Below are positions 12,771-56,215 of a stretch of 64,000 nucleotides of DNA, in pieces. Position 1 is the first letter of the stretch; each line of letters opens with the position of its first letter. The notes under the pieces were generated by a model that was not told where the DNA came from, did no database searches, and was given only the letters and a program-made list of their open reading frames with translations. The stretch covers positions 1 through 64,000 of the IMG/VR virus record IMGVR_UViG_3300009414_000001. One strand, written 5' to 3'. Made by a program: the position numbers and the translations under genes. This DNA is from a virus.

Positions 12771-12788
12771 TTAGTTTATTTGTTAGTA
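12771..12788 (-). promoter_or_regulatory. C1-type operator, lysis cassette
   Basis: Minus strand reads TACTAACAAATAAACTAA and runs directly into the AAAGG ribosome site of the endolysin gene. One of 12 dispersed copies; proposed binding site for the C1-like repressor at 35285-36043. Confidence 0.65.
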
Positions 12789-24460: not shown

Positions 24461-24486
24461 AAAAAGACCCGTTAAGGTCTTTTTTG
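24461..24486. terminator. Hairpin terminator
   Basis: AAAAAGACC and GGTCTTTTT arms around a short loop, with A/T runs on both sides, at the end of the 24513-25864 unit. Confidence 0.8.
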
Positions 24487-24512
24487 GGTTAGCCGTACAT
24501 CCAACAGGGCAA

Positions 24513-24707
24513 CTAAGCAACCCGTAGGTGATCAAGAGAAACACCGCCAGCCTTACCGCTGATTTGAACAACGATTTCACCATGACCAAGTGCCCATGGT
24601 TCAGACCTGACTGTATGCTCGGTAAACACCTCTTTTTCATCTAATAACGGGTAATAGAGTACTTTAGTACCTATAGGAAACTCTGCTCTTGCTCTATCAA
24701 AAATCAT
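24513..24707 (-). CDS. Small hypothetical protein
   Basis: 64 residues, beta-rich (FPIGTKVLYYPLL...GHGEIVVQISGKAGGVSLDHLRV). A KOW/SH3-like barrel is possible. It directly follows a 54-residue membrane protein gene and is closed by the terminator at 24461-24486. Confidence 0.55.
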   Translation of the reverse strand: MIFDRARAEFPIGTKVLYYPLLDEKEVFTEHTVRSEPWALGHGEIVVQISGKAGGVSLDHLRVA

Positions 24708-24872
24708 TTAATATTTACTCCACGGTAAAAGCTCAATCACAACATAATTAAAATCTTTCCACTTTTCCCAGTTAGGCTCTTTACGTGCAACCTCAATAGC
24801 AGCCGTACCAAGCAATGCAGGAATGGTAAAGGGCAGCACAGCCACCCTAACGATAAGTTTAATAATTACCAT
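24708..24872 (-). CDS. Short single-TM protein
   Basis: 54 residues starting MVIIKLIVRVAVLPFTIPAL, one hydrophobic N-terminal segment, then a polar tail ending VIELLPWSKY. It overlaps the upstream exonuclease stop (ATGGTAA) and abuts the downstream start. Both junctions are operon-like, which supports it despite its size. Confidence 0.5.
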   Translation of the reverse strand: MVIIKLIVRVAVLPFTIPALLGTAAIEVARKEPNWEKWKDFNYVVIELLPWSKY

Positions 24873-25456
24873 TTCATGAACACCGTTGAACGATAAGCCT
24901 TAAGCTCTTTTATCGACTCTTGGATATCTGCCAGCGCTTCATGCTTAAACTCTTTACGGCTAGTAATATCTTTCTCAAGTTCAGGTATAAACGCTCTAGC
25001 AGCTAACGCCAGCACACTAATATCTAGCTGACGATAATGAAAGTAATCGTTTAACTCAGGCATTTGGCAAGTAAGAAAATTGCGGTCTAGCTTGATAGAA
25101 TTACCTGAGAATACTGCGCCTGTTTTTTCTTTACGATCATACTTATTGATACCAAGCGCTTTAAGGTGGCTAATAATAACTTGCTCTGCTTCTTTTAGTG
25201 TCAATGCCGAAGCTCTAACCTCATCTAATAAACCACTCTTTGTATGCGCTTTTAAAGCCCATTCATGGCACTTCGCTATCTCGGCCTCGCTTTGATGGAT
25301 TACCAATCTTAACGGCTCACCCACTTGATTTAACTCAAGGTCAGTGACGATAAACGCCAGCTCAAATATAGGATAGTGAAGCATCCCCAATTTATTACCT
25401 TCGATGCGACCATCAAGGCCACCCGTTTCAATATCACCATGTACAAAATATTGCAT
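24866..25456 (-). CDS. DnaQ/oligoribonuclease-like 3'-5' exonuclease
   Basis: 196 residues. Exo I motif HGDIETGGLD (about 7-16), Exo II around GNSIKLDRNFL (about 118-128) and Exo III FKHEALADI (about 173-181) give the DEDDh catalytic set of the oligoribonuclease branch. It would degrade short RNA or act as a proofreading-type exonuclease during phage growth. Length fits Orn (about 180). Overlaps neighbours by one and seven bases. Confidence 0.75.
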   Translation of the reverse strand: MQYFVHGDIETGGLDGRIEGNKLGMLHYPIFELAFIVTDLELNQVGEPLRLVIHQSEAEIAKCHEWALKAHTKSGLLDEVRASALTLKEAEQVIISHLKALGINKYDRKEKTGAVFSGNSIKLDRNFLTCQMPELNDYFHYRQLDISVLALAARAFIPELEKDITSRKEFKHEALADIQESIKELKAYRSTVFMKW

Positions 25457-25722
25457 TATTTAACCTCTTTGTTTTTGTTGTAATCGTTAATAAAATCCTC
25501 GCCCAATCTCTTAACAACCTTTTCTGGTAATATACTTATATCGCCTTTTACCACTGAGTTAGGTGCTTCTATTTTGTGCTCATCGCAACGCTTATATAGA
25601 TCATCACCATAAACAGGGTACTTGTATTCACCGAAGTCATGCGTAACTATATTTCTCGCTACAAAGGTAACTGGCTGACCACAAATATCACAAGTTTCTT
25701 GAGTGTTATTTCCCTTATTCAT
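25456..25722 (-). CDS. Small zinc-binding protein
   Basis: 88 residues. ETCDICGQPV (9-18) and YKRCDEHKI (about 43-51) give a CxxC plus CxxH site, probably one zinc knuckle. Next to the exonuclease gene with a one-base overlap. Function unknown. Confidence 0.5.
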   Translation of the reverse strand: MNKGNNTQETCDICGQPVTFVARNIVTHDFGEYKYPVYGDDLYKRCDEHKIEAPNSVVKGDISILPEKVVKRLGEDFINDYNKNKEVK

Positions 25723-25738
25723 CTTAAAGCCCTATTGT

Positions 25739-25864
25739 TTAGTTGTAATAAATGGCGTTGTTTAGCTCGCCTATATGCGTTTCAATTTCTAACCGTTTAT
25801 CCCAATATTTTTGCGTGCCATTATTGGATTGGCTTTTTATTTGCTTACTTCTTAACTCAGGCAT
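25739..25864 (-). CDS. Very small hypothetical protein
   Basis: 41 residues, MPELRSKQIKSQSNNGTQKY at the start. It overlaps the upstream gene's stop (ATGCCTGA) and has AAGGGG at good distance. Charged and helical, no family recognised. Confidence 0.45.
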   Translation of the reverse strand: MPELRSKQIKSQSNNGTQKYWDKRLEIETHIGELNNAIYYN

Positions 25865-26099
25865 AAAACAGCCCCTTAATTGCTTGATAAACAGACCGCC
25901 CATTAAAGATCCGTCTAATAAAATATGACCTCGCTAACGATATCAGCGTATAACACAATCCAAGGCTCAAGTTTTGGCCTGCACTAATAGACCACCCGAA
26001 CATAGGAAATAAAATAGCGTTAGCTGTTAGAGTAATAGAAAGACCTATTAATATGTTTGTGAGCGACTCAAGTAGTGAGTCTTTTTTTGTTTGATTCAT
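25857..26099 (-). CDS. Small membrane protein, DUF7220-like
   Basis: 80 residues from MNQTKKDSLLESLTNILIG; a longer frame to 26315 would run through the upstream gene. Two membrane segments, ILIGLSITLTANAILFPMFG and LSLGLCYTLISLARSYFIRR, followed by FNGR. The SLLES-x-x-N-ILIG and RSYxxRRxFN features match a widespread phage/plasmid family of unknown role. Confidence 0.65.
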   Translation of the reverse strand: MNQTKKDSLLESLTNILIGLSITLTANAILFPMFGWSISAGQNLSLGLCYTLISLARSYFIRRIFNGRSVYQAIKGLFYA

Positions 26100-26100
26100 G

Positions 26101-26532
26101 TTATTGAGTCTGCTCATAGATTGTGTCCGATTTATCACAAATAAAGCCATGGCAAACATACCCTGTAGCCTCATCGTATGGCGTTCTTTTGCATTTCTTC
26201 TGCCTGTACTGATAATGCTCATAGCCACAGCTAAAAGCGTAAGGGTTAGCATTGTAATCAGCATAATATTGATCTTGCCCGTTGCGTGCCGCATTAGCGC
26301 CAGCTGCAAAGCCACTCAAGAAGTCTTCTCGCGTGTTGATCATCAACGTTTCACCCAAGCTACCCTCTACAACCAAAATAGCACCCAGTTTAACTAACCT
26401 AGTTACCGTTTCACTGTTAAAAGAACCATGATAAACATCTTTATTCACATCATAAATAACAGGAGTGTCGCCGTGCCCCGTTGCTTCCATCAAAGAAACA
26501 AATAACTCTCGCTGTTTTCTTGGTATTGGCAT
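26101..26532 (-). CDS. Accessory protein, unknown
   Basis: 143 residues from MPIPRKQRELFVSL (the frame continues upstream to 26571). HTREDFLSGFAAGANAARNGQD-like sequence and a Tyr-rich C-terminus with Cys residues (YVCHGFICDKSD). Not recognised. Confidence 0.5.
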   Translation of the reverse strand: MPIPRKQRELFVSLMEATGHGDTPVIYDVNKDVYHGSFNSETVTRLVKLGAILVVEGSLGETLMINTREDFLSGFAAGANAARNGQDQYYADYNANPYAFSCGYEHYQYRQKKCKRTPYDEATGYVCHGFICDKSDTIYEQTQ

Positions 26533-28314: not shown

Positions 28315-28725
28315 ATGTTAAATTATATATTCTTATCAATCATGTTGGCTTTTAACCCAGCAGCAGAATCAGCAACAAGCAATCTTGATCAAGGCACGCC
28401 ATCAGTTCAAGGTAGCAAAACAAAGCGTGTTGATTTTAATTTACTTGGCAGCAAAACAAAGCGTGTTGACTTCAACGTGCTCGGCAGTAAGTCAAAGCGA
28501 ATAGCTTACGGTAGTAAAAGCAAGCGCATCGCTTACGGTAGCAAATCAAAGCGTATTGATTTTAATCTGTTAGGTAGTAAGTCGAAGCGAATCGACTTTA
28601 ACTCATACGGCAGCAAGTCAAAACGAATTGACTTCAATATGCTTGGCAGCAAATCAAAACGCATCGACTTTAATATGCTTGGTAGTAAATCAAAACGCAT
28701 TAATGCTGATTCCGTCAAAATATAA
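28315..28725 (+). CDS. Exported peptide with nine GSK(S/T)KR repeats
   Basis: 136 residues. The N-terminus (MLNYIFLSIMLAFNPAAESA) looks like a signal peptide with likely cleavage after ESA. From residue 33 there are nine copies of GSK(S/T)KR(I/V), most followed by DFN plus two hydrophobic residues, two by AY. The product is strongly basic, and each unit has a Ser/Thr and a dibasic Lys-Arg. Synonymous codons vary among repeats while the amino acids are kept, so the peptide is under selection. AAGGG ribosome site; terminator at 28748. It heads the phosphatase/sigma/kinase cluster. No known family. It could be a periplasmic ligand, a multi-peptide precursor or a phosphoacceptor. Confidence 0.7.
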   Translation: MLNYIFLSIMLAFNPAAESATSNLDQGTPSVQGSKTKRVDFNLLGSKTKRVDFNVLGSKSKRIAYGSKSKRIAYGSKSKRIDFNLLGSKSKRIDFNSYGSKSKRIDFNMLGSKSKRIDFNMLGSKSKRINADSVKI

Positions 28726-33576: not shown

Positions 33577-34476
33577 ATGGATATCTTAAATGACGTTAAA
33601 GACTGGTTAAATTCAGAGTTCCCATCGCAAGAAGAGATCAAAGAAACAATAGACAGGCTGTCTATGAATGCTGGCTCAACTAAGAACCCAGCTGAACGCT
33701 TTGAATTTAAAGATGCAATCGAGTTACTTAAAAAGGAATTAGGCAAAGAGCCACAGACCTTAAGCAGTAATTCAAAGAATGGCGTTGCTGCCTTCCCTTC
33801 AAGTATTAGAGAGGAAAGCCCAGCCCCCATCAAAGCAAAACCTTTAAAAGCAAACGGAAGCAGAGCAGCCAGTCCGATTAAAGATAAAACTGACATCAAG
33901 ATGATTGCGAAAATGATGAGCAAGTGGAACTTTCAACGTGAAGCTCATTTATTAATTATCGGATGTAATACAGCTCTACGTTATTCAGATTTGCGCATGA
34001 TGAGATTCGATCAGGTAATTCATTCAGCGAAAAATGACGGCACAGCATACATAGAGCAGATAGTTGAAAAGAAAACTGGCAAAGCAAAACGTTTAATATT
34101 GAACAGAACAGCCATGAAGTACATCACAGCGCAATATGAGTCGTTAAAAGGATTAGGAATAGAAAACCCTATCTATGTATTTCAAGGCACAGGAAACCGA
34201 ACGAAGGCAGAGCCAAAACCTGTATCAAGAAGTCATGTAAACCAAGTCTTCAAACATGTTAGAGAAGATATGGATCTAGATTTTAGATTGTCTACTCACA
34301 CGATGAGAAAGACTTTTGGATACCATGCGTATGACAATGGTAAAGGTATCGATATAAAGATACTACAGAAGCTATTTAATCACGCATCAGAACAAGACAC
34401 CTTTATTTATATTGGTGTTAACGCTCAGCGAGTACAGGAAGCTTATATAACAGCTGAGATAGAGATAGATTTGTAG
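33577..34476 (+). CDS. Tyrosine recombinase
   Basis: 299 residues. Residues 1-105 are a helical N-terminal part with a linker. The catalytic domain shows ALRYSDLR (Arg I), a Lys-rich beta hairpin (KKTGKAKRLIL), HTMRKTFGYH (H-x-x-R), LFNHASEQDT (second His) and the nucleophile in YIGV. All catalytic positions are present. It may resolve plasmid dimers as Cre does in P1, or integrate. Likely controlled through the palindrome at 33522. Confidence 0.85.
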   Translation: MDILNDVKDWLNSEFPSQEEIKETIDRLSMNAGSTKNPAERFEFKDAIELLKKELGKEPQTLSSNSKNGVAAFPSSIREESPAPIKAKPLKANGSRAASPIKDKTDIKMIAKMMSKWNFQREAHLLIIGCNTALRYSDLRMMRFDQVIHSAKNDGTAYIEQIVEKKTGKAKRLILNRTAMKYITAQYESLKGLGIENPIYVFQGTGNRTKAEPKPVSRSHVNQVFKHVREDMDLDFRLSTHTMRKTFGYHAYDNGKGIDIKILQKLFNHASEQDTFIYIGVNAQRVQEAYITAEIEIDL

Positions 34477-38774: not shown

Positions 38775-39092
38775 CTACATATTGTCCTTGATAGCAGATA
38801 TAAGCTGGTCTTCGTCGATTTCTTCACGCATAGAAAGCAGGCCACGGATAATCATGCTACGAGTAATACCACGACCTCTTCTGCCTGTTGTTTCGGTTAA
38901 TTCATCAGCCCACTGCCCAAACTCTTCATACTCACCATCAGAACAGCGGTATGAGTGCTGCTCTAATGAGTTGCTATCAGACGTTTTACTGGTCTTTTTT
39001 AATTTCTTTTTTTCTTTTTTTTCAGCATTAAGACGAGCGTTGAAAGCAGACGTCTTACTTGCTGGTATTTCTTTATTTTTTTGTGTTGCCAT
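38775..39092 (-). CDS. Small partition DNA-binding protein (ParB-like)
   Basis: 105 residues. A basic flexible N-terminus (about 1-45) is followed by a helical RHH-like segment (EEFGQWADELTETTGRRGRGITRSMIIRGLLSM). Small size, basic tail and one-base overlap after a short ParA fit the type Ib centromere-binding protein, not a P1-type ParB. Likely binds the GTGCGAA cluster downstream and represses its own operon. Confidence 0.65.
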   Translation of the reverse strand: MATQKNKEIPASKTSAFNARLNAEKKEKKKLKKTSKTSDSNSLEQHSYRCSDGEYEEFGQWADELTETTGRRGRGITRSMIIRGLLSMREEIDEDQLISAIKDNM

Positions 39093-39868
39093 TATTCAAG
39101 CACCTCTACTATTTCCTTTGTTAATTCTTTGTATTTCATGGCGACAACAGAGCCTTTCTTATAGGCACACACCGCTTGGTTAGCTACTATCGACTTGCTG
39201 ACGTTTGCGCATCGATTAATTTCAGCTTCAAATCTAGGTATTAGATTCTCTGCAATGTCATGGTCTATCAAATCATTCTCGATAGATGCCCTGCCATCCT
39301 TCATCGTGCGGAACATATAGCACAGCGGCATATCATCTTCTCGCAAGTCCAAAACCTTACTATATAGAGAGGCTGTCGCTTCAACTGACACAACATCACC
39401 GATAGGGCTTACAATCAAATCAGCTATGTTTATTGCATTAAGTGCAGACAAATCTAAAGAAGGCGCACAATCAATTACTATGTAGTCAAAATCATCGACA
39501 ACACCCTTTAGTGCTTTTTCTAATATTTGCTCTCTACGTGTTCTTTGGTGAGCTGCTATCACTGCCTCACCAAATAACGGCGAGGCTGGCGCTATAAATA
39601 AATTATCAATTTCTTCCTCTGTCTTTCCGTCAACAGCAGGAACAATAGCCTTAATCACCTCCACACCTTTAGTTGCAAACACATCGGTCATGGTTACATC
39701 AAACGAATACGAGCCACCTGTCATCACCCTAGACCCGTTTCCTTGATGGTCTAAATCTACCATAAGCACCATACTGCCTTGCTTAGCCAGACAGTAACTT
39801 ACATTCTTAGCGGTATCGGTTTTGCCAACACCGCCCTTACCATTTGCTACAACAATAATCTTAGCCAT
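39092..39868 (-). CDS. parA: ParA partition ATPase, type Ib
   Basis: 258 residues from MAKIIVVANGKGGVGKTDTAKN; the frame extends to 39928 but AAAGGAG precedes this ATG. Deviant Walker A KGGVGKT at about 10-16, MVDLDHQGNG (Walker A'), and FDYIVIDCAPSLDL (Walker B) define ParA/MinD ATPases. No N-terminal regulatory domain, so type Ib. It segregates the prophage plasmid with the small protein encoded next. Confidence 0.9.
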   Translation of the reverse strand: MAKIIVVANGKGGVGKTDTAKNVSYCLAKQGSMVLMVDLDHQGNGSRVMTGGSYSFDVTMTDVFATKGVEVIKAIVPAVDGKTEEEIDNLFIAPASPLFGEAVIAAHQRTRREQILEKALKGVVDDFDYIVIDCAPSLDLSALNAINIADLIVSPIGDVVSVEATASLYSKVLDLREDDMPLCYMFRTMKDGRASIENDLIDHDIAENLIPRFEAEINRCANVSKSIVANQAVCAYKKGSVVAMKYKELTKEIVEVLE

Positions 39869-40034
39869 TACGACTCCTTTTTTTGTACCATTGCAATGAT
39901 GATAGCTCATTACAAACACAATTAACACACAAATAAATAACTTTTAACATACATACGAAATACATATAAAACACAATATACTTTCAACACAAAAAAAGAG
40001 CACCTAAGCACTCTTACATTTAGCTATTTGTAAG

Positions 40035-41291: not shown

Positions 41292-41894
41292 TTAACCGAA
41301 TAAAGCCTTGTCACCAGCAACATATGTATCAACCAAATCCTCTTCATCATTATCAAGATAGTTTATTGTTGTTTCTGGCTTACTGTGATTTAAAAGCTGC
41401 TGTATTTCTTCAAGTGTGCAACCATTTTGCTCTCTCAAGCGTGAACCAGACTTTCTTAACGAATGCGTACCTAAATTTACATTGCCTAACCGACCTATTG
41501 AGCGCCTATATCTCATTACATCGATTTCAACTTCACACATCCACTCCCACACCCTGCCTCTGCTGATAGGGTTTCGACCACCACCGTAGCGACTTTCAAA
41601 TAAATACTTGTCATTAGGAAACTTAAGGCGCATTTCAGTTAATATTTTTATTGCATGTGGTGTTAACGTGATCAGCTTCTTTTTCTTTGTTTTACCTTCA
41701 ATTATTTTGAATTGACCTACATCAAGAGCAGCATCTATTTGCTTTGTAGTTAATCTTAATAAATCACTAATCCTTAGCGCCCACAAAGCTGTTAACTCTG
41801 CTATCCAGCGAGCTTTTATACCTCGTTTTTTCTCTAACGAGTCTAAAATCACATGGAACTCATCTTTATTTCTAGCGCTATGAACTTTACTCAT
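41292..41894 (-). CDS. Catalytic-domain-only tyrosine recombinase
   Basis: 200 residues. ALRISDLLRL (Arg I), GKTKKKKLITL (Lys hairpin), THSLRKSG (H-x-x-R), LLNHSKPETT and the tyrosine in INYLDND are all present, but there is no N-terminal core-binding domain. Compact recombinases of this type act in dimer resolution or as accessory resolvases. Independent of the 33577 enzyme. Confidence 0.8.
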   Translation of the reverse strand: MSKVHSARNKDEFHVILDSLEKKRGIKARWIAELTALWALRISDLLRLTTKQIDAALDVGQFKIIEGKTKKKKLITLTPHAIKILTEMRLKFPNDKYLFESRYGGGRNPISRGRVWEWMCEVEIDVMRYRRSIGRLGNVNLGTHSLRKSGSRLREQNGCTLEEIQQLLNHSKPETTINYLDNDEEDLVDTYVAGDKALFG

Positions 41895-43292: not shown

Positions 43293-43803
43293 TTTATAAA
43301 TCTCATTTCATTAAGTTTTAGCAACCCCCTTTCTATTAAAGGGTTAATCTAATGCAATACTATAATTTTTTAAATTTTGGTTCAAGTTGTTAGTACATTT
43401 AATTAAAAAATAGGCAATCAGAAAGGTATAGCTTCTTTTTTATACAAAAAGTGATGACCGTTCACCAATACAGTTAAATTCACTTAAGATCCTTTGATTG
43501 GATCTACTCACTACGTTATGAATTCATCTTTTAATGGGGCAAACGAATAAAATAAGCTTATTAACACAAACTAACACCCAAGTTAGCGATCTAATAAAAT
43601 AAGCCGCTTAATTGCCTTGTAGACGTTCTTTATCTTTCAAGATGATCAAATAAAAATTTATTGTTTACTCTTGGAGCGCCAGCGACTTAATAAGATATAA
43701 ATATATATTTAGATATAGTAGATAATAATAGATAGCGTATATTTCGTGTACAGCAACAAACCCAGTGGTAGCAGTAGTTACAAGGTTTTTTTTCATATAT
43801 GAG
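43293..43803. other. AT-rich leader of the origin region
   Basis: No gene found. An extremely AT-rich stretch at about 43676-43750 could be a DNA-unwinding element. AAGATCCTTTG (43485-43495) recurs at 44491-44501, both with Dam GATC sites. Confidence 0.5.
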
Positions 43804-43906
43804 GTTATGCGATAGTACTGTTAAAGTTATGTGATAGTACTCTTTTGGTTATCCGATAGTACGCAAATAGTTATGTGATAGTACTCTTTTGGTTATCCGA
43901 TAGTAC
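43804..43906 (+). repeat. Iteron array A, five copies at 22-bp period
   Basis: GTTATNYGATAGTAC-type 15-mers start at 43804, 43826, 43848, 43870 and 43892, exactly 22 bp apart (two helical turns). Variants alternate GTG/CCG. The sequence is unrelated to array B, so a different initiator or regulator probably binds here. Confidence 0.9.
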
Positions 43907-44377
43907 TGTTAAAAATGGCTATAAAAGCCTTAAAACACAGCTTATACAGGGTTAGTAACAACATACTAACAGATTTACTAACAAGTCTATTTTAGCTTTT
44001 AACGCCTTGATAGCTTTAAAATCACTTAAAAGCGGTAGTTGATGAATGCAAAAAAGTAAAGGATCGTTTGGTATTGTTAATAGCTCTACACGTTAATATT
44101 TGCTATCAAATAACGGTTATTGCATTCATTGCGATAGCTAACTTGCCTTATAGCCCTAAGCCACTCAAATTGACTCACAGGAGCTAACGGCTGTTTTTTC
44201 TATTCTTGTTTGTTTTAACTGTCAGGATCCCACTGTAGGAATGATTGCACTTAACTAAACAATTAAATACAACATGAGGTAACGCTTGCGTTAGATCTTA
44301 CATTCTTTCTTCTTTCCCTTTCTTCTTTCTCTTTAGTGGGCTTTAACGAATTGATTTTAAAGAGGTAATAAGGCCAC
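43907..44377. other. Spacer between iteron arrays
   Basis: No gene. It holds ACTAACAGATTTACTAAC (43965-43982), partly like the C1 element, a pyrimidine-rich tract at about 44303-44335, and several GATC sites. Confidence 0.5.
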
Positions 44378-44480
44378 TTAACGACAGTTTAGAGCCTATC
44401 TAACGATACTTTAGAGACTAACTAACGACATTTTAGAGCCTAATAGACGACAATTTAGAGACTAACTAACGACAAAAATG
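44378..44480 (+). repeat. Iteron array B, five copies at 22-bp period
   Basis: CTAACGACANTTTAGAG-type units at 44378, 44400, 44422, 44444 and 44466 (last one partial), precisely 22 bp apart, immediately upstream of the Rep_3 initiator gene. Classic replication-origin iterons. Confidence 0.9.
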
Positions 44481-44481
44481 A

Positions 44482-44490
44482 TGTGGATAA
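44482..44490 (-). promoter_or_regulatory. DnaA box
   Basis: TGTGGATAA is the exact complement of the consensus TTATCCACA, placed right after array B as in many iteron origins. Confidence 0.75.
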
Positions 44491-44585: not shown

Positions 44586-45590
44586 ATGGATCATAAACCT
44601 AACTTAACCGTTGTACATAGCAATGACCTTTCTGAATTTAGTTACTCTTTGTCCCTTGATGAATTGAGAATATTAAACTTAGCGCTAACAAAGGTTGACA
44701 GCAGAAAGTCCAAAACTGGCGTCATATCCATACATGCATCTGAGTTTGCAGAGATGTATGACCTAGACAGGCATAATGTTTATAGAAACATGCGCAATGC
44801 CTTGAAGGAGATTAACAGAAAACCGATCAAAGTGCCCTACCTTGATGACAACAACAAACCAAGAGTAAGAGAGAAAACTTGGCTAACAGATCTCGACTAC
44901 TCTACCTTAGATGACTCTGATGAAGTTTTTATTGAGTTCAACCCTTCTATTCATGAGTATCTATTCGAATTAAAATCAAACTTTACTTCACTTAATTTTC
45001 AGTATGTTAGCCAGTTAAACACTCCCTTTTCATTTAGATTATACCAATGGCTAAATAAGGCTAGGAATTTAAATAAACACCAAAAAGGCTCTACTGTGGA
45101 AGTTGAGTTAAATGTTGACTGGATGAAAACAGTGTCAGGCTTAGATGATAAGTACAATAGGTGGGGAGACTTTAAAGACAGAGTTATTCACCCTGCGGTA
45201 AATCAGATAAATTCTAAAAGCGACTTGTCGGTAATGTATGAACCGCTAAAACGCTCAAGGTCAATTTATGCAGTTAGATTTGTTTATATAGTTGAAGCAA
45301 GCACGCCAGAGTTTTCACCTCCAACAAGGCCACGACTCTCAAGGCGTCCAAAAGTAAAATCAGGAACTCACCTTGAGGGGGAGTGGATGCGAACAAACTT
45401 AGCTCTCTTACTTAAATATGAAAAGGATTTAAAAACTTATGATCCTTCTGCAAAACTAACCATGGCTGACCTAAAAAAAATAGCGCAATACTCATCAATA
45501 TGTAGCCATCTTACCCATGAAAGGATCACCCAAGAGATAAAGCAAAGGCAAAATAAAAGGTTATCTAACGACAAAATAGAGATGAACTAA
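44586..45590 (+). CDS. Rep_3-family plasmid replication initiator
   Basis: 334 residues. Two winged-helix domains: FSYSLSLDELRILNLALTKV...IHASEFAEMYDLDRHNVYRNMRNALKEI (about 18-80), and FNFQYVSQLNTPFSFRLYQWLNKARN...VDWMKTVSGL (about 135-195). This is the Rep_3 (RepE/RepA) layout. It binds the flanking iterons to open the origin. The last codons overlap downstream iterons. Likely maintains the prophage plasmid. Confidence 0.9.
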   Translation: MDHKPNLTVVHSNDLSEFSYSLSLDELRILNLALTKVDSRKSKTGVISIHASEFAEMYDLDRHNVYRNMRNALKEINRKPIKVPYLDDNNKPRVREKTWLTDLDYSTLDDSDEVFIEFNPSIHEYLFELKSNFTSLNFQYVSQLNTPFSFRLYQWLNKARNLNKHQKGSTVEVELNVDWMKTVSGLDDKYNRWGDFKDRVIHPAVNQINSKSDLSVMYEPLKRSRSIYAVRFVYIVEASTPEFSPPTRPRLSRRPKVKSGTHLEGEWMRTNLALLLKYEKDLKTYDPSAKLTMADLKKIAQYSSICSHLTHERITQEIKQRQNKRLSNDKIEMN

Positions 45591-45753
45591 CGACAAAATA
45601 GAGATGAACTAACGACAATTTAGAGAACTTACCGCTAACAAAGCAGTTAAAACAGGATTACTAGCCACTTTTTTGGACAATAACCGCTCTTTGCAGGTCT
45701 ATTCGTGCCTCTATATCCCTTTAGGTGTAAAACTCTCTCTAAATTGTCGTTAG
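45565..45753 (+). repeat. Downstream iterons B' with one inverted copy
   Basis: Three more direct copies of the array B unit begin at 45565, 45587 and 45609 (22 bp apart), overlapping the rep stop. One copy is inverted at 45737-45753 (CTCTAAATTGTCGTTAG). Such sites usually control copy number by handcuffing. Confidence 0.85.
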
Positions 45754-45844
45754 TTGGGGTAATTCCCATAGCAACACACTTGGGCTGCCAATAAAAACAC
45801 TATAGATTACAATGCACTAATAATAACCCCTTCCGCTCTTATTT

Positions 45845-50372: not shown

Positions 50373-51206
50373 TTAGTAATTTTCAGAGCGAAGCATCATT
50401 GCTAATCGCCCAGTAACCTTATTCATACAAACCTCATAGCTGATGTTTGCATCATTAATGCAGTCGATAGCCTTTTGAAGCTCTTGGGCTTTAAAGTCTT
50501 TTACCTTTTTACGTGTAGAGCCTGAGAGTTCGTGCAGCTGCTTGGCGTTAGGGGTAAATCGACCGTCATATTTATTACTGGCAATAAAGGCGTGAATGAA
50601 TTTAGCTAATGAATTGCCGCTTAAGGCTTTTCTTTCATAGCTATCTATTCTCGCAAAGCCACCACCACCAAATAACTCATTTAAGCCGTGAGGCAGCACA
50701 ATCGACCAATCTCTTGATACTCGTCTTGTGCCTTTTCCGTCTTCGTCGGTGATGTAAATACTGTATTCAGAAATGAGGTTGAAGCTAAACTGGCGGTTAG
50801 TTGTTTCGTTATTACCGATGTAGCGAATAACATTGCCACTCACTGCGGTATTACGAAGATGGTCTAAGCAATCAATTATCTTTTTTCGGTATCTAGTCTG
50901 TAAAGGCCAACCAAGTGAGTGCAATAATTCAGAACGAGTAAATGAAATAACTTCGCCAGTGTTAACTTTTTTACTTAAATGCAGCAGCTCTAAATAGACA
51001 TCCAAATCATCTTGATTTAAGCCAAAGCCATGGTAATTAACTGTGGTTACACCTTGCTTATTGCTATCAGAGAATATCGTTGACGGCTTGATGCAGCCCT
51101 CTCTTTTTCTATTGCCACGAACTGCAAATAATCCACATTTTATAAATTCTCTTGGTATGGCTCTTTCACCATTTTTCCAGAAAACAATATTAGGTTGCGC
51201 TGACAT
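50373..51206 (-). CDS. TrfA-like replication initiator
   Basis: 277 residues from MSAQPNIVFWKNGERAIPRE; the frame extends to 51317 through the operator, so this inner ATG is preferred. RGNRKREG...YHGFGLNQDDLDVYLELLHLSKK...GEVISFTRSELLHSLGWPLQTRYRKKIIDCLDHLRN (about 20-130) matches the TrfA family of broad-host plasmid initiators. A second initiator beside the Rep_3 protein. A paired C1-type operator lies in front, so lytic-phase replication is the likely role. Confidence 0.75.
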   Translation of the reverse strand: MSAQPNIVFWKNGERAIPREFIKCGLFAVRGNRKREGCIKPSTIFSDSNKQGVTTVNYHGFGLNQDDLDVYLELLHLSKKVNTGEVISFTRSELLHSLGWPLQTRYRKKIIDCLDHLRNTAVSGNVIRYIGNNETTNRQFSFNLISEYSIYITDEDGKGTRRVSRDWSIVLPHGLNELFGGGGFARIDSYERKALSGNSLAKFIHAFIASNKYDGRFTPNAKQLHELSGSTRKKVKDFKAQELQKAIDCINDANISYEVCMNKVTGRLAMMLRSENY

Positions 51207-51252
51207 ATACCGCTCATTTTTTTTATTTTGATATCTATTTATAACACAGGAT

Positions 51253-51300
51253 ACCCTAACAAATAAAATATTTTTATTAATTTGCTTTATTTTGTTAGGA
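51253..51300. promoter_or_regulatory. Bivalent (inverted) C1-type operator
   Basis: ACCCTAACAAATAAAATA (51253-51270, plus) and TCCTAACAAAATAAAGCAA (51282-51300, minus) face outwards/inwards as an inverted pair between divergent TrfA-like and csrA operons. P1 also has bivalent C1 operators. Confidence 0.65.
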
Positions 51301-51367
51301 TGTTGTGAGATTATCAAAATCGCAAAAAGGCACGAATGCCGATTAATAGCTATAGAAGGGCTTACTC

Positions 51368-51562
51368 ATGACTACAAAGCAAATACCACTAAATACCGTA
51401 ATAACCTTTAAGAATCTTTCTGAAATTAAAGAGGAGTACGGTAGTGATGCCGTAGCTGAGTTTTATGCAGATAAGAAAAAAATGTTAGTACAGCAAGGTA
51501 TGGTTTCCAATGGTGGTTTTGCGGCGAGTCCGTTAACTACAAAAAAAGGAAATGCTCACTAA
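51368..51562 (+). CDS. Small protein upstream of csrA
   Basis: 64 residues, helical (LSEIKEEYGSDAVAEFYADKKKMLV). Coupled to csrA by one-base stop/start overlap (TAATG). Unknown. Confidence 0.5.
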   Translation: MTTKQIPLNTVITFKNLSEIKEEYGSDAVAEFYADKKKMLVQQGMVSNGGFAASPLTTKKGNAH

Positions 51563-51765
51563 TGCTCGTACTAAGCAGAAAAATAGGCAATGCCGACCAG
51601 TCAAAAATTACCGTCTTCACGCCAACAGGTGACAAAATTGTTTTTTGCGCCTTAAGCATGAAAGGAAATTCCGTACAGGTGGGCATTGAAGCCCCTAAAC
51701 CTTATACGGTAATACGAAATGAATTGCTTGACAAAAATGGAGATCCTAAAAGACCTCTCAGATAA
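51562..51765 (+). CDS. csrA: CsrA/RsmA-like RNA-binding regulator
   Basis: 67 residues, the usual size. MLVLSRKIGNADQSKITVF at the N-terminus and VQVGIEAPKPYTVIRNEL correspond to beta-1 (LxLSRK) and the VxIGIxAPxxxxVxRxEL strand and helix of CsrA. The two key Arg positions (Arg6 and the one before NEL) are kept; the middle strand is diverged. It would bind GGA in host or phage leaders and shift host carbon and virulence control, or time phage expression. Confidence 0.75.
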   Translation: MLVLSRKIGNADQSKITVFTPTGDKIVFCALSMKGNSVQVGIEAPKPYTVIRNELLDKNGDPKRPLR

Positions 51766-52276: not shown

Positions 52277-52612
52277 ATGTCGAAAAAGCCCCTTAGCAAG
52301 CAAGCAAAAACACGAAACGCTGTTATCAAGTATTTGATTAGTCATGGCGAGTATAAAACGCCAAAGGAAATCGAAAAGGCCATAGGGATTAGTAGAGAAA
52401 AAATAACACGCTCTATTTCCGATATCAGGCAATGCGAAGATTATATAACGCTTAGCCTGATCAAGCCTTTTCGAGTTCGACTAAAAAGCGTAGCTAAGCA
52501 GGATGAATTGTGGCGAACCGCTCTAAATATTAGAGCGCCAGCGAAGGCAGGAAAAACTAAAAATGAATCATGTACAAAAAACACCTCTAAAGTACGTAGG
52601 CGGAAAAGCTAG
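52277..52612 (+). CDS. Winged-helix-like DNA-binding protein
   Basis: 111 residues. TRNAVIKYLISHGEYKTPKEIEKAIGISREKITRSISDIRQ (about 12-52) looks like a winged helix; basic C-terminus. Overlaps the Dam gene by 50 bp, so expression is probably coupled. Confidence 0.55.
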   Translation: MSKKPLSKQAKTRNAVIKYLISHGEYKTPKEIEKAIGISREKITRSISDIRQCEDYITLSLIKPFRVRLKSVAKQDELWRTALNIRAPAKAGKTKNESCTKNTSKVRRRKS

Positions 52613-53390
52613 GCTCTACGATAAAATAAAGCCTTATTTTCTGAGTTCTAAAAAACAAGCCATTGCAGAGCCGTTTGCTGGCGCTGCTGCAACCTTCTTT
52701 TTATTATCAAAAGAAGGTTTACTGACTGAGCCATCATTGCTTAACGACTTAAGCTCTCCTTTAATTGATTTTTACGAAGAGCTAAAAACCAACCCTCTTG
52801 AGCTTAGTAGTGCCTTAACACAATTCTCTGACTACCATAGTGAGCGCTTCTACTATCACGTTAGGGAATGGGATAGATATGATCAATGCACAAGCCAGCA
52901 GCTAGCCGCTCGTTATTATTACATCAATAGAATTGGCTACAATGGATTGTACAGAGTCAACGGCGACAACCAATGTAATACACCATGGGGGCAGCGAAAG
53001 TCTTTTAATGTAAATCAGCAAAATTTAAACTGGGCTTCTAAGACACTACAGGGTGCTGTACTAGATAGCGCGCAGTATGATAGCTTGCCGATTACTAACG
53101 ATAAATTCTACCTTATCGATCCGCCTTATTATGACACTTTTGACGGCTATACAAACACAAGGGCAGACAAAGCCTTCTATGAACGGTTAAAAGCCTTTAT
53201 TGACGCACTCAACGCCATCGGCGCGCCTTTTTTACTAACAAACTCAAACAATACCTTCATTCAAGAGTTGTTTTCAGAATACAGGCAGCAAGTCGTTAAT
53301 ATCACTTATAGTGTTTCTGGCAAAGTGTCAGGTCGAAAACCTACTACTGAATTATTCATTTCAAACATTGAGATCAACCATGACAACTAA
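52563..53390 (+). CDS. dam: Dam-type adenine methyltransferase
   Basis: 275 residues. TPLKYVGGKARLYDKIKPYF (SAM motif near 5-20), EPFAGAAATFFLL and LIDPPYYDTF (catalytic DPPY, about 186-189) define the D12-class N6-adenine methylases (GATC). P1 also carries a Dam methylase, which acts on its pac site and origin; GATC sites lie in this origin region. Confidence 0.85.
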   Translation: MNHVQKTPLKYVGGKARLYDKIKPYFLSSKKQAIAEPFAGAAATFFLLSKEGLLTEPSLLNDLSSPLIDFYEELKTNPLELSSALTQFSDYHSERFYYHVREWDRYDQCTSQQLAARYYYINRIGYNGLYRVNGDNQCNTPWGQRKSFNVNQQNLNWASKTLQGAVLDSAQYDSLPITNDKFYLIDPPYYDTFDGYTNTRADKAFYERLKAFIDALNAIGAPFLLTNSNNTFIQELFSEYRQQVVNITYSVSGKVSGRKPTTELFISNIEINHDN

Positions 53391-53613
53391 AAAAAAGAAA
53401 AGTAACAAAGAAATAAACGACAGCAAAGGTTACATTTTTAGTGTCGAGGGCGGAAAAAGAAAATGCGCAAGAGAGTCAGGTGAGGAAAGAAAAAAGAGCA
53501 GACCTAACGAGGAAACTATTAAAGCAAGGGAGCGCAGAGAGAAGCTTGATAGCATTGCGAGGAAAAAGGAACTCTTGTCGCTTGAGCAAGAGTTCGACTA
53601 TCTTGATTATTAA
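53380..53613 (+). CDS. Small basic protein after dam
   Basis: 77 residues from MTTKKKKSNKEINDSKG, overlapping the dam stop by 11 bp. Lys/Glu/Arg-rich helix. Its stop overlaps the convergent protease stop by two bases. Unknown. Confidence 0.5.
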   Translation: MTTKKKKSNKEINDSKGYIFSVEGGKRKCARESGEERKKSRPNEETIKARERREKLDSIARKKELLSLEQEFDYLDY

Positions 53614-54584
53614 GCTTTGTTATTAAAGTTAGGCTCTTCCTCGTAACTTTCAAAGCTTTTACCTTCATTAGCTGTAGCGGTGTCCTGTGAAGCCGTTACA
53701 TTGTTAGCGCTGGCTAACATCAACTTATCTTGCTCTGACATATTGCCAACACTCGCCAAAATCATTGTTAATGCTTCGTTTGGCTCACCAGTGCTTTGCA
53801 ATGCAAGCGCCTTTGTTTCCTCAGTCACAAAAACAGGTAACCTTTCAATACATGCCAGCATAAGCGCTTGGCTGTCAGCGCGGGCTTTTTCAGACGCTTG
53901 CTCGATGTCAGAAATCTTCTGATCTTCTTTGTTATCGTTAGCTAAGTGCATTAATTCAAGCTCTTCGACAACGCTGTTGTGCTCAACACGACTTACAGAG
54001 TCATCAGCATCCAAGGCTTCATACTTTTCGTTAGCTTCTGACTCACTTAAGCCGCTTTTGACTAAAGATGCGATGATATCTTCTCTTGATGGCGCAGTAC
54101 TCGCCAGCATCATATTTTCAGTGCTGATATAGTTAGGGCGCTTAACATAATCAATACCAGCAAAATCAGTCATAATGCGATGACCGTTTGCTGAGTTCGT
54201 CGCCCAAGACCAGCCACCTACATTAGAGTCAATCATTACAGACATTGCCTTGCCGCCATCGGTATCATAGATTTCTTGAGTAAAATCCACAGTCCCATCG
54301 TCAGAAACAGACAGGTGAGTCGTGCGACAATCTGGTACAACATTAACCTTAGTGCCTTCAATGAACTCAACGTCACTAGGGCGCAATTTACCCGTTTTAG
54401 CACGCACTTCATGACCAAAATAGCCATAATGCTCGCCAAGCTCAAAGCCCTGCTTTACAAGCGGTGCATCAAGTGTTTTTCTTATACTGGCAATAGCAGG
54501 CATAAAATTTTGACTGTCAATTCTGCCGCTATTGAATAAATTAAATTTATCGCTAACCGTTCTTAATACGCTAGGTTTTTTCAT
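53610..54584 (-). CDS. pro: Head maturation protease with scaffold-like tail (Pro)
   Basis: 324 residues. Residues 50-135 hold EHYGYFGHEVR (His58) and SNVGGWSWATN (Ser126), the spaced His/Ser of T4 gp21/HK97-type prohead proteases. Residues 150-324 are helical and acidic like a scaffold and contain four copies of the candidate cleavage motif: MMLAS 158-162, LMLAC 241-245, MILAS 274-278 and LMLAS 288-292. In P1, pro lies next to prt (portal), as here (one-base overlap). The protease would process capsid, portal and itself. Confidence 0.65.
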   Translation of the reverse strand: MKKPSVLRTVSDKFNLFNSGRIDSQNFMPAIASIRKTLDAPLVKQGFELGEHYGYFGHEVRAKTGKLRPSDVEFIEGTKVNVVPDCRTTHLSVSDDGTVDFTQEIYDTDGGKAMSVMIDSNVGGWSWATNSANGHRIMTDFAGIDYVKRPNYISTENMMLASTAPSREDIIASLVKSGLSESEANEKYEALDADDSVSRVEHNSVVEELELMHLANDNKEDQKISDIEQASEKARADSQALMLACIERLPVFVTEETKALALQSTGEPNEALTMILASVGNMSEQDKLMLASANNVTASQDTATANEGKSFESYEEEPNFNNKA

Positions 54585-56215
54585 TAGTTACTTTCCTCTA
54601 TTTCATTAATTACATCGAGCATTAAGCTCTTAACGTACTCTGCATCGCCTTTTCGATTACCTATACCAGCACTCGCCAGCATTTGATCATCATTTGAGAC
54701 AGTTTTTGAAATGTCTTCCAACATCACATTGACTTTATCTTCGTCAACATTGAGGTGATCAGTAAACACCCAGTTTTTAACAGAGTTTGGTAGTTGTGCA
54801 TCACCCATCATCGCCAACAAGTTAACCACTTGCAGAGCGAAATCAGCGTTAGCCGTGCGACTAGCTGCTTCTTTAAGCTCTATAGCAGTATTCATTGAGT
54901 TGAACATCAAGCGATAAGGCTTATCAGAGTTAGTGATTATTTTTCCGTGCTTGTAGTAAATATGCGTTTTAATGATGTCTTCATAGCCGCTTGATATGCC
55001 ATTACGAAGCCAATTTGCTTTCGTTAATGCTTGGATAGATGTTTGTAAAAATCCGCCCTCGCCTAACCCACCAGCCATCAAATCGCCAAAACCTAATAAT
55101 GACAAATCAAGCGATAAGCTTGATGCCAAGCGCTTTGCATTGAACATAATGTCTTCAATGTCTTTTATGTTTGGATTGCCTGTTGTCGTATCTATATCCC
55201 ACGCGCCTTTTTTGGGGATCACAGTATTTATGTATGACTGAAAATAAGCGCTACTTGCTGCTGTTGAATTACGTAACTTAGTATCATTTTTAAGCTGGCG
55301 TTGAATGAATTGAATGTATTCAGCGCCCGACAGCTGATCTAGCCCGTTAGTATCAATGCCTATTAATCGCTCCTGCCTTGCCGTATTACGGCGCGCAGCT
55401 TGCAGGGCTAATAAACCCTCGCCTAGTGCAATATAGGGATCGTGGCAAGTAGCCAGTAAGCTAGTGCCATAGTTTTGTGTTTCTATAGGCTTTCTGTCTC
55501 TAGGTAGCGTATTAAGAGAAAACTTACCATTCGAATCAGCATGCAGAGGGCGTTGAGCTGGATTAGGCTCCCAGTGTGGCGTCTTGAAGCAGGCTACTTG
55601 CCATGGTTCCACCAGTTGAATTAAATTCCCTTTCTTGGGGTTTCCTAGATGTTCAGAAGTATAACCAGCGACTTCACCACCACGAACATAGCGCTTAAAC
55701 GTGTGAGGTAACGTGTGATAGTCATGCTCAAGAGATATAAGCCCCTTAGCCCCCCAATGAGGCTTTGCATAATTACAACCGTAAACAGCCATTATATTTG
55801 CTATTTCGATGGTTTTCTCATTAAAGATATCTTGTAAATCTTCTCGCAATTCTTTTGCGAAGTCTTTATCTTTATCTGTCGTTGATTCAATTGTTAGTAT
55901 CTCGCCTGTTACTGGCTTTTGACTAAATGCGTGAGAAACATGGATACCTAATCCTGAGCTAATGGTCGAATCGCATGCCATTGCTTCATATATACCATAG
56001 CGAGATCGACGGTCTATGGGGGCTGTATTAATTGGTGTAACATCAGCCTCGCCAGCCTCGCCACTGCCAGCAGAGTTACCGACAAGATGAGAGCCGCTCG
56101 TTGCACCAGCTTCCATTTCATAGGTGGCACTAGGATCATTAGCATCGCTAGCTTTAAAGCCTTTCCATAATTCGGTGATTCTGGCTTTTACGCCTCTTTT
56201 CTCTGTCATTGCCAC
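54584..56215 (-). CDS. prt: Portal protein (Prt)
   Basis: 543 residues, a usual portal size. RRSRYGIYEAMACDSTISSGLGIHVSHAF (about 70-98) is the portal crown/clip entry. A long wing/stem follows, with LASSLSLDLSLLGFGDLM (about 355-375). QMLASA (MLAS at 512-515) near the C-terminus matches the candidate head-protease motif, so about 28 residues could be trimmed. It would form the packaging channel docking PacB. Divergent from darB across a C1-type operator. Confidence 0.75.
   Translation of the reverse strand: MAMTEKRGVKARITELWKGFKASDANDPSATYEMEAGATSGSHLVGNSAGSGEAGEADVTPINTAPIDRRSRYGIYEAMACDSTISSGLGIHVSHAFSQKPVTGEILTIESTTDKDKDFAKELREDLQDIFNEKTIEIANIMAVYGCNYAKPHWGAKGLISLEHDYHTLPHTFKRYVRGGEVAGYTSEHLGNPKKGNLIQLVEPWQVACFKTPHWEPNPAQRPLHADSNGKFSLNTLPRDRKPIETQNYGTSLLATCHDPYIALGEGLLALQAARRNTARQERLIGIDTNGLDQLSGAEYIQFIQRQLKNDTKLRNSTAASSAYFQSYINTVIPKKGAWDIDTTTGNPNIKDIEDIMFNAKRLASSLSLDLSLLGFGDLMAGGLGEGGFLQTSIQALTKANWLRNGISSGYEDIIKTHIYYKHGKIITNSDKPYRLMFNSMNTAIELKEAASRTANADFALQVVNLLAMMGDAQLPNSVKNWVFTDHLNVDEDKVNVMLEDISKTVSNDDQMLASAGIGNRKGDAEYVKSLMLDVINEIEESN

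Follow-up and report, generated by a model that had tools for sequence, protein, structure and literature searches.

The window analysed here, 64,000 nucleotides in length, corresponds to bases 1–64000 of a viral record of 89,820 bases. At 50373–51206, on the minus strand, it encodes a TrfA-family replication initiator of 277 amino acids with two predicted winged-helix domains; nowhere else in the 89,820 bp was TrfA matched. The gene starts with an ATG; the TTG at 51317 in the ORF list merely opens the longest frame. On the minus strand trfA is preceded by homologues of the P1 head-processing protein Pro (53610–54584, minus strand, 35% identity to P1 Pro) and of the portal protein Prt (54584–56215, minus strand, 35% to P1 Prt). 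A Dam-type DNA methyltransferase gene (52563–53390, plus strand) is oriented divergently from trfA; its product is 28% identical to P1 Dmt and 25% identical to the Dam encoded at the equivalent place in Vibrio vulnificus p48/10. The same divergent operon includes a CsrA-family regulator (51562–51765, Pfam 5e-11).

Comparison with the P1 proteome by blastp revealed around 30 P1 homologues in the record with identities of 25–43%; head, tail and packaging genes are represented, sheath and capsid among them, and the set takes in prt, pro, 22, 23, PacB, darB and bplA. Judged by these matches the record is a P1-like phage that is distant from P1, which bears out the comparison with P1 made in an earlier, sequence-only reading of this DNA. 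The bplA gene is split over both record ends, which makes it probable that the full circular genome is represented. Homologues of RepL, KilA, Ban and RepA were not found in the record by the same blastp comparison, nor did the RepL profile phrog_2418 match it in a search that recovered the positive controls. The phage encodes a homologue of the P1 repressor C1 (35285–36043, plus strand; 29% to P1 C1, E = 4e-12; phrog_1678, E = 1.2e-19) and a ParA-like partition ATPase (39092–39928, minus strand; phrog_164, 8.7e-40). Two tyrosine recombinases are encoded at 33577–34476 and 41292–41894, the first of which is 46–47% identical to a recombinase encoded in the Vibrio and Photobacterium elements described below; no convincing Cre homologue was found in the record. 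Among the other gene products are a DarA-like protein of 1703 amino acids (67035–72146 of the record, L003), far above the 639 amino acids of P1 DarA, and a small protein composed of GSKTKRVDFN-like repeats (28315–28725).

The TrfA-like protein noted in the sequence-only reading is confirmed by profile searches, with matches to Pfam PF07042 (E = 9.6e-14; score 51.5 bits, curated cut-off 22) and to phrog_26900 (3.4e-32). An AlphaFold2 model based on a 26-row alignment has a mean pLDDT of 87, and structure comparison aligns its residues 12–275 with the iteron-bound RepE54 monomer (Z 15), followed by R6K pi (Z 13.3) and RctB (Z 13.2). By its predicted fold the protein is an intact two-winged-helix iteron initiator, and the family core residues are retained. 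A QLPLW-type motif near the N-terminus is absent from the phage TrfA and from all TrfAs of the Vibrio and Photobacterium P1-like elements, and present in most others; it is common in the TrfA family rather than defining, and we suspect that it is the counterpart of the clamp-binding motif of RK2 (PMC4980987).

The phage encodes a further initiator, of the Rep_3 family (44586–45590, plus strand; PF01051, 1.7e-33; PF21205, 1.6e-17), for which we propose a role in plasmid maintenance. Upstream of the gene are located iterons with a CTAACGACA core and a 22-bp period (44370–44482, plus strand), with a DnaA box, TTATCCACA, beside them (44482–44490, minus strand), and three more iteron copies lie downstream (45557–45625, plus strand). 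The sequence-only reading had reported a Rep_3 initiator with iterons and was correct in this, and the combination of gene, flanking iterons and DnaA box is, to judge from its features, the standard layout of an iteron plasmid origin. What had been overlooked is a second array of five 22-bp direct repeats with a RGTTATNYGATAGTAC core (43803–43912, plus strand), an iteron family distinct from that of Rep_3. Arrays of at least four copies were found in none of 8 shuffled genomes. A GC-skew analysis for origins yielded a single monotonic trend and was uninformative.

By E-value the best TrfA matches in the plasmid collection are encoded by P1-like phage-plasmids of marine Vibrio and Photobacterium, including V. 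vulnificus p48/10 and P. toruni pCECT9189-2. In these elements portal and pro are followed by a methyltransferase operon that is divergent from an operon ending in rdgC–trfA on the portal strand, and a further initiator of another family is encoded elsewhere in the element. No TrfA match was found in annotated phages by tblastn, nor in viral contigs by a single-sequence scan; an alignment query recovered additional TrfA-bearing members in the viral contigs where that scan gave none (L116–L119, L124 and L126). In a phylogenetic tree the phage TrfA groups with all the Vibrio and Photobacterium P1-like TrfAs and L116 with a support of 100/98, but it sits on a very long branch and the join is therefore provisional. 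Going by the TrfA sequences, L126 is a separate acquisition. The Alteromonas macleodii plasmid pAMBAS45 was considered as a relative and rejected: the annotation of the part covered lists neither trfA nor any other initiator, and the plasmid is probably a deletion derivative. This P1-like plasmid (L196) carries a diversity-generating retroelement at 24483–26101 that includes a reverse transcriptase and Avd.

Among 36 P1-like records chosen by portal, 28 encode RepL and none TrfA; conversely, the phrog_2418 profile detected RepL in none of the 13 TrfA-bearing P1-like records, the phage included, and no element among those examined encodes both. P1-like records without RepL include one with two RepA-type initiators (L012) and one with RepA and Rep_3 (L013), which hints that the lytic initiator has been replaced in further ways. 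In 17 RepL-bearing records from beyond the P1 species group, repL is located downstream of the portal gene on the same strand at a distance of approximately 1.3–10 kb, usually within 1–6 kb, and in D6 it directly follows prt–pro (order prt–pro–repL). The phage trfA is located 3.4 kb downstream of the portal gene on the same strand; this RepL-like position supports the notion that TrfA has replaced RepL. Position alone does not discriminate, however, because both replicons are near portal–pro in the Vibrio elements.

Three Vibrio elements provide a natural initiator swap. TrfA is identical (100%) in V. parahaemolyticus NZ_CP046830, V. owensii G038 and Vibrio p0908, RdgC, Dam and Pro are 98–100% identical in the same three, and ParA, compared for two of them, is 99% identical. 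The initiator encoded between par and dam is of the P1-RepA type in NZ_CP046830 and G038 (45% and 43% identical to P1 RepA, respectively, and 46% to each other) and of the Rep_3 family in p0908, which is only about 20% identical to either of them. The exchange of the par-linked initiator is as expected of a plasmid replicon that determines incompatibility, and the fixed TrfA is as expected of a backbone function; these comparisons suggest that TrfA belongs to the fixed phage backbone and that the par-linked initiator is an exchangeable plasmid-maintenance replicon. The Vibrio elements carry an array of five to six 22-bp repeats (GGTATCTCGATTTATGC) approximately 0.6 kb downstream of trfA. It is present with either type of second initiator, Rep_3 or RepA, and at the equivalent place P. 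toruni carries 22-bp repeats in five copies. On this comparative evidence the arrays belong with trfA in the Vibrio and Photobacterium elements. The V. vulnificus element pVv01 is mitomycin-inducible and plaque-forming and is reported to be closely related to p0908 (PMC4132613), and such Vibrio elements can thus be functional phages.

The array at 43803–43912 has the same copy number and period as the trfA-linked arrays of the Vibrio and Photobacterium elements. It is located between a PmgS-like gene and trfA, and the overall order is that of the relatives with the Rep_3 replicon intervening. Its similarity to the Vibrio iterons is not significant (best P = 0.13), and its assignment to TrfA consequently rests on architecture; by this analogy it is the most likely candidate for a TrfA-dependent origin. 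The sequence-only reading had proposed looking for an origin inside or near the TrfA-like gene; no iterons were found inside or beside trfA in the phage, and the best candidate is approximately 6.5 kb away. Strict TTATCCACA boxes are located on the Rep_3/RepA side in the phage and in each of the Vibrio and Photobacterium genomes compared, and at the TrfA array in none of them. Read as its reverse complement (GTACTATCRNATAACY), the array resembles a motif that is dispersed over the phage genome (P ~0.007 at a width of 15, ~0.05 at shorter widths).

This dispersed motif (GTACTAACAAATAAACTA / GTACTAACAAATAAACTAAAGG) occurs in 11 copies in the record, mostly just upstream of start codons. The copies of GTACTAACAAATAAACTAAAGG are located at 12774, 18610, 18730, 19464, 20199, 23688, 24379, 26584 and 38615 of the window and at 64572 and 88502 of the record, and their sites include the mat homologue, an R-like tail-fibre gene and the vicinity of PacA. 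A further copy, ATACTAACAGATTTACTA (43963–43980, plus strand; 17.2 bits, rank 12 genome-wide), lies approximately 50 bp from the array at 43803–43912. The motif resembles the P1 late promoter (AACAARTGACTW) with P = 0.013 and the C1 operator with P = 0.08, and hence leans a little more, not decisively, towards a late promoter; it is probably a late promoter element and possibly an operator.

An inverted pair (51255–51299), a putative regulatory site, lies in the divergent promoter region (51207–51367) that separates trfA from csrA–dam; its arms, CCTAACAAATAAAA (51255–51268) and TTTATTTTGTTAGG (51286–51299), are 17 bp apart. The sequence-only reading had placed an inverted pair just upstream of trfA and taken it for a bivalent C1 operator. 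The pair is indeed present and its arms are complementary at 12 of 14 positions, but an equal or better inverted repeat was found in 9 of 60 shuffles, no better than chance, and a matrix built from 14 P1 C1 operators reaches at most 1.2 bits in the trfA upstream region; the interpretation as a C1 operator was thus not upheld. Over the whole record the best match to this matrix (15.1 bits at 45811) was inside the shuffled range, and none was located upstream of trfA. The phage's own C1 is a diverged homologue, and P1-consensus operators are also missing from the relatives with a diverged C1, for which reason trfA may still be under C1 control. A different, CTAAT-type site is located upstream of the C1 gene (35208–35223) and is absent upstream of trfA; AGYGATCTAATWAWWT, tried as an operator specific to the phage's own C1, has mismatch-free copies at just two positions, 35208 and 43585, neither of them at trfA.

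The arms of the inverted pair match half of the dispersed motif GTACTAACAAATAAACTA. A matrix derived from its 11 sites, without the arms themselves, scores them at 16.7 and 8.6 bits, ranking 13th and 24th genome-wide, and when the region upstream of trfA is shuffled the better arm has a P of 0.0005. A C1 operator is one of several options for the pair, alongside a late-type promoter element and an autoregulatory operator of the initiator. There is a minor chance, compatible with our main view, that the pair is an operator of the phage's own diverged C1 and that trfA is C1-repressed like the repL of P1. The phage does encode a C1 homologue, CTAAYAAA is common to the arms and the P1 operators, and the motif shared by the arms is also found at the homologues of mat and ref, both of which are C1-controlled in P1. 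Against this, in addition to the poor score of the P1 matrix and the different site upstream of the C1 gene, the motif is slightly nearer to P1 late promoters and lies directly at the start codons of several genes. In the Vibrio and Photobacterium elements the rdgC–trfA promoter includes two or three RCGTAATTA repeats with a 12-bp spacing (13912–13945 in L101, and equivalents), the only such cluster in each genome. Their uniqueness indicates that this promoter is probably regulated there too, by a different protein than that of the phage.

The absence of RepL, the P1-like backbone, the swap of the other initiator and the separate iterons support a lytic role for TrfA, and we consider it reasonably probable on the sequence evidence that TrfA, as a component of the phage backbone, replaces the RepL of P1 as lytic initiator. 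The Rep_3 gene, its own iterons and the DnaA box would form the plasmid-maintenance replicon of the lysogen. In this scheme, induction would switch on TrfA synthesis from the regulated divergent promoter. The protein would then bind to its separate array of five 22-bp iterons, here most likely that at 43803–43912, and by opening the origin bring in the host replisome, which would amplify the genome for lytic growth; we infer the initiator activity, its timing, the origin and the mode of promoter control alike. A P1-like division of labour with TrfA in the role of RepL had been put forward in the sequence-only reading: its core gains indirect support from the comparisons, in that RepL and TrfA do not co-occur in the elements examined, that the swap leaves TrfA 100% identical and that TrfA has its own iterons in Vibrio; its reasoning from a C1 operator finds none in the sequence. 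Several observations count against our main view. The phage TrfA shares just 29–31% identity with the Vibrio TrfAs and has a very long branch, the candidate array is distant from trfA and without a significant match to the Vibrio iterons, and the swap is seen in the Vibrio relatives, not in the phage itself. The likeness of the array to the motif dispersed at other promoters implies that it may belong to another protein.

It is also conceivable, with a probability well below that of the lytic role, that both initiators serve the plasmid state and that TrfA is a second maintenance replicon of a multireplicon element with a wider host range, lytic replication being recombination-dependent or driven by an unrecognised initiator. 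TrfA, after all, serves plasmids such as RK2 as their maintenance initiator (PMC4980987), and those of its relatives that are annotated occur in plasmid records; in other viral contigs it occurs without a strong Rep_3 match, in one case adjoining ParA, and the Vibrio trfA shares its operon with the gene for the recombination protein RdgC. Against this reading, a maintenance replicon under incompatibility selection should show the opposite of the pattern in the Vibrio elements, where the par-linked initiator is swapped and TrfA is identical, and RepL is absent wherever TrfA is present. The reverse assignment, with plasmid maintenance by TrfA and lytic replication by Rep_3, appears improbable: ParA adjoins neither initiator in the phage, with Rep_3 4.7 kb and TrfA 10 kb away, but the Rep_3 gene has the classical plasmid origin layout, and in the Vibrio relatives it is the Rep_3/RepA gene that is linked to par and has been swapped.

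A loss of initiator activity, with TrfA acting as a regulator or incompatibility factor instead, could account for the long branch and the missing QLPLW motif of most TrfAs; we regard it as unlikely in view of the two-domain RepE-like fold predicted intact and with high confidence, the retained core residues and the iteron arrays kept beside trfA in the relatives. Improbable too, in our estimate, is a TrfA that combines lytic initiation with transcription regulation, in which the origin iterons, the inverted pair and the motif at around 12 genes, some of them late, would share one recognition sequence and couple replication to late expression.

If lytic replication can indeed be taken over by a plasmid-type iteron initiator, unrelated initiators would be interchangeable in the lytic slot of phage-plasmids, and pipelines that annotate trfA as a plasmid replicon gene would be assigning such elements by a phage gene. 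It would also raise the question as to how runaway replication in the lytic phase could be sustained by an initiator of the iteron type, which handcuffing normally holds in check.

Textbooks describe P1 as having separate replicons for the plasmid and the lytic state, the latter of which has been studied through RepL. The phage resembles P1 and D6, with their RepL/oriL, in possessing a second initiator apart from the plasmid replicon; as in D6 and many P1 relatives its proposed lytic initiator is a backbone gene near portal–pro, and like the RepL of P1 and D6 it adjoins a probably regulated promoter. It differs from both in that the initiator belongs to the TrfA family and not to RepL (phrog_2418), and in the lack of kilA. 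In contrast to P1, where oriL is placed in repL (PMC9948254), the candidate origin of the phage is an iteron array outside the gene; within oriL, importance has been demonstrated for an AT-rich stretch (PMC9948254), and for this reason the missing repeats in trfA do not decide whether an origin is located within the gene.

With TrfA and oriV of the IncP plasmid RK2 the phage shares the Pfam TrfA family, a two-winged-helix iteron initiator and an array of five repeats. The repeats of RK2 oriV have a 22-bp spacing. RK2 oriV includes five TrfA sites (PMC4980987). In contrast to RK2, the phage TrfA coexists with a separate plasmid replicon and is missing the QLPLW motif, and its array is without an adjacent strict DnaA box; its identity to the TrfAs compared is 21–31%.

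The closest parallels are p48/10, p0908, the other Vibrio P1-like elements and pCECT9189-2, which share with the phage a P1-like backbone, a TrfA downstream of portal–pro on the same strand, a divergent methyltransferase operon, a second initiator family and the absence of RepL. A C1 homologue was not found in p48/10 or pCECT9189-2. Unlike in the phage, trfA of the Vibrio and Photobacterium elements is in an operon with rdgC behind a promoter with unique 12-bp repeats, and its iterons, of a different sequence, are located 0.6 kb downstream of the gene. No paper describing TrfA as a lytic initiator was found in the literature searched. A P1-type phage with two replicons is thus a known arrangement; the new element, which the balance of the evidence favours, is a TrfA-family protein in the place of the lytic initiator.
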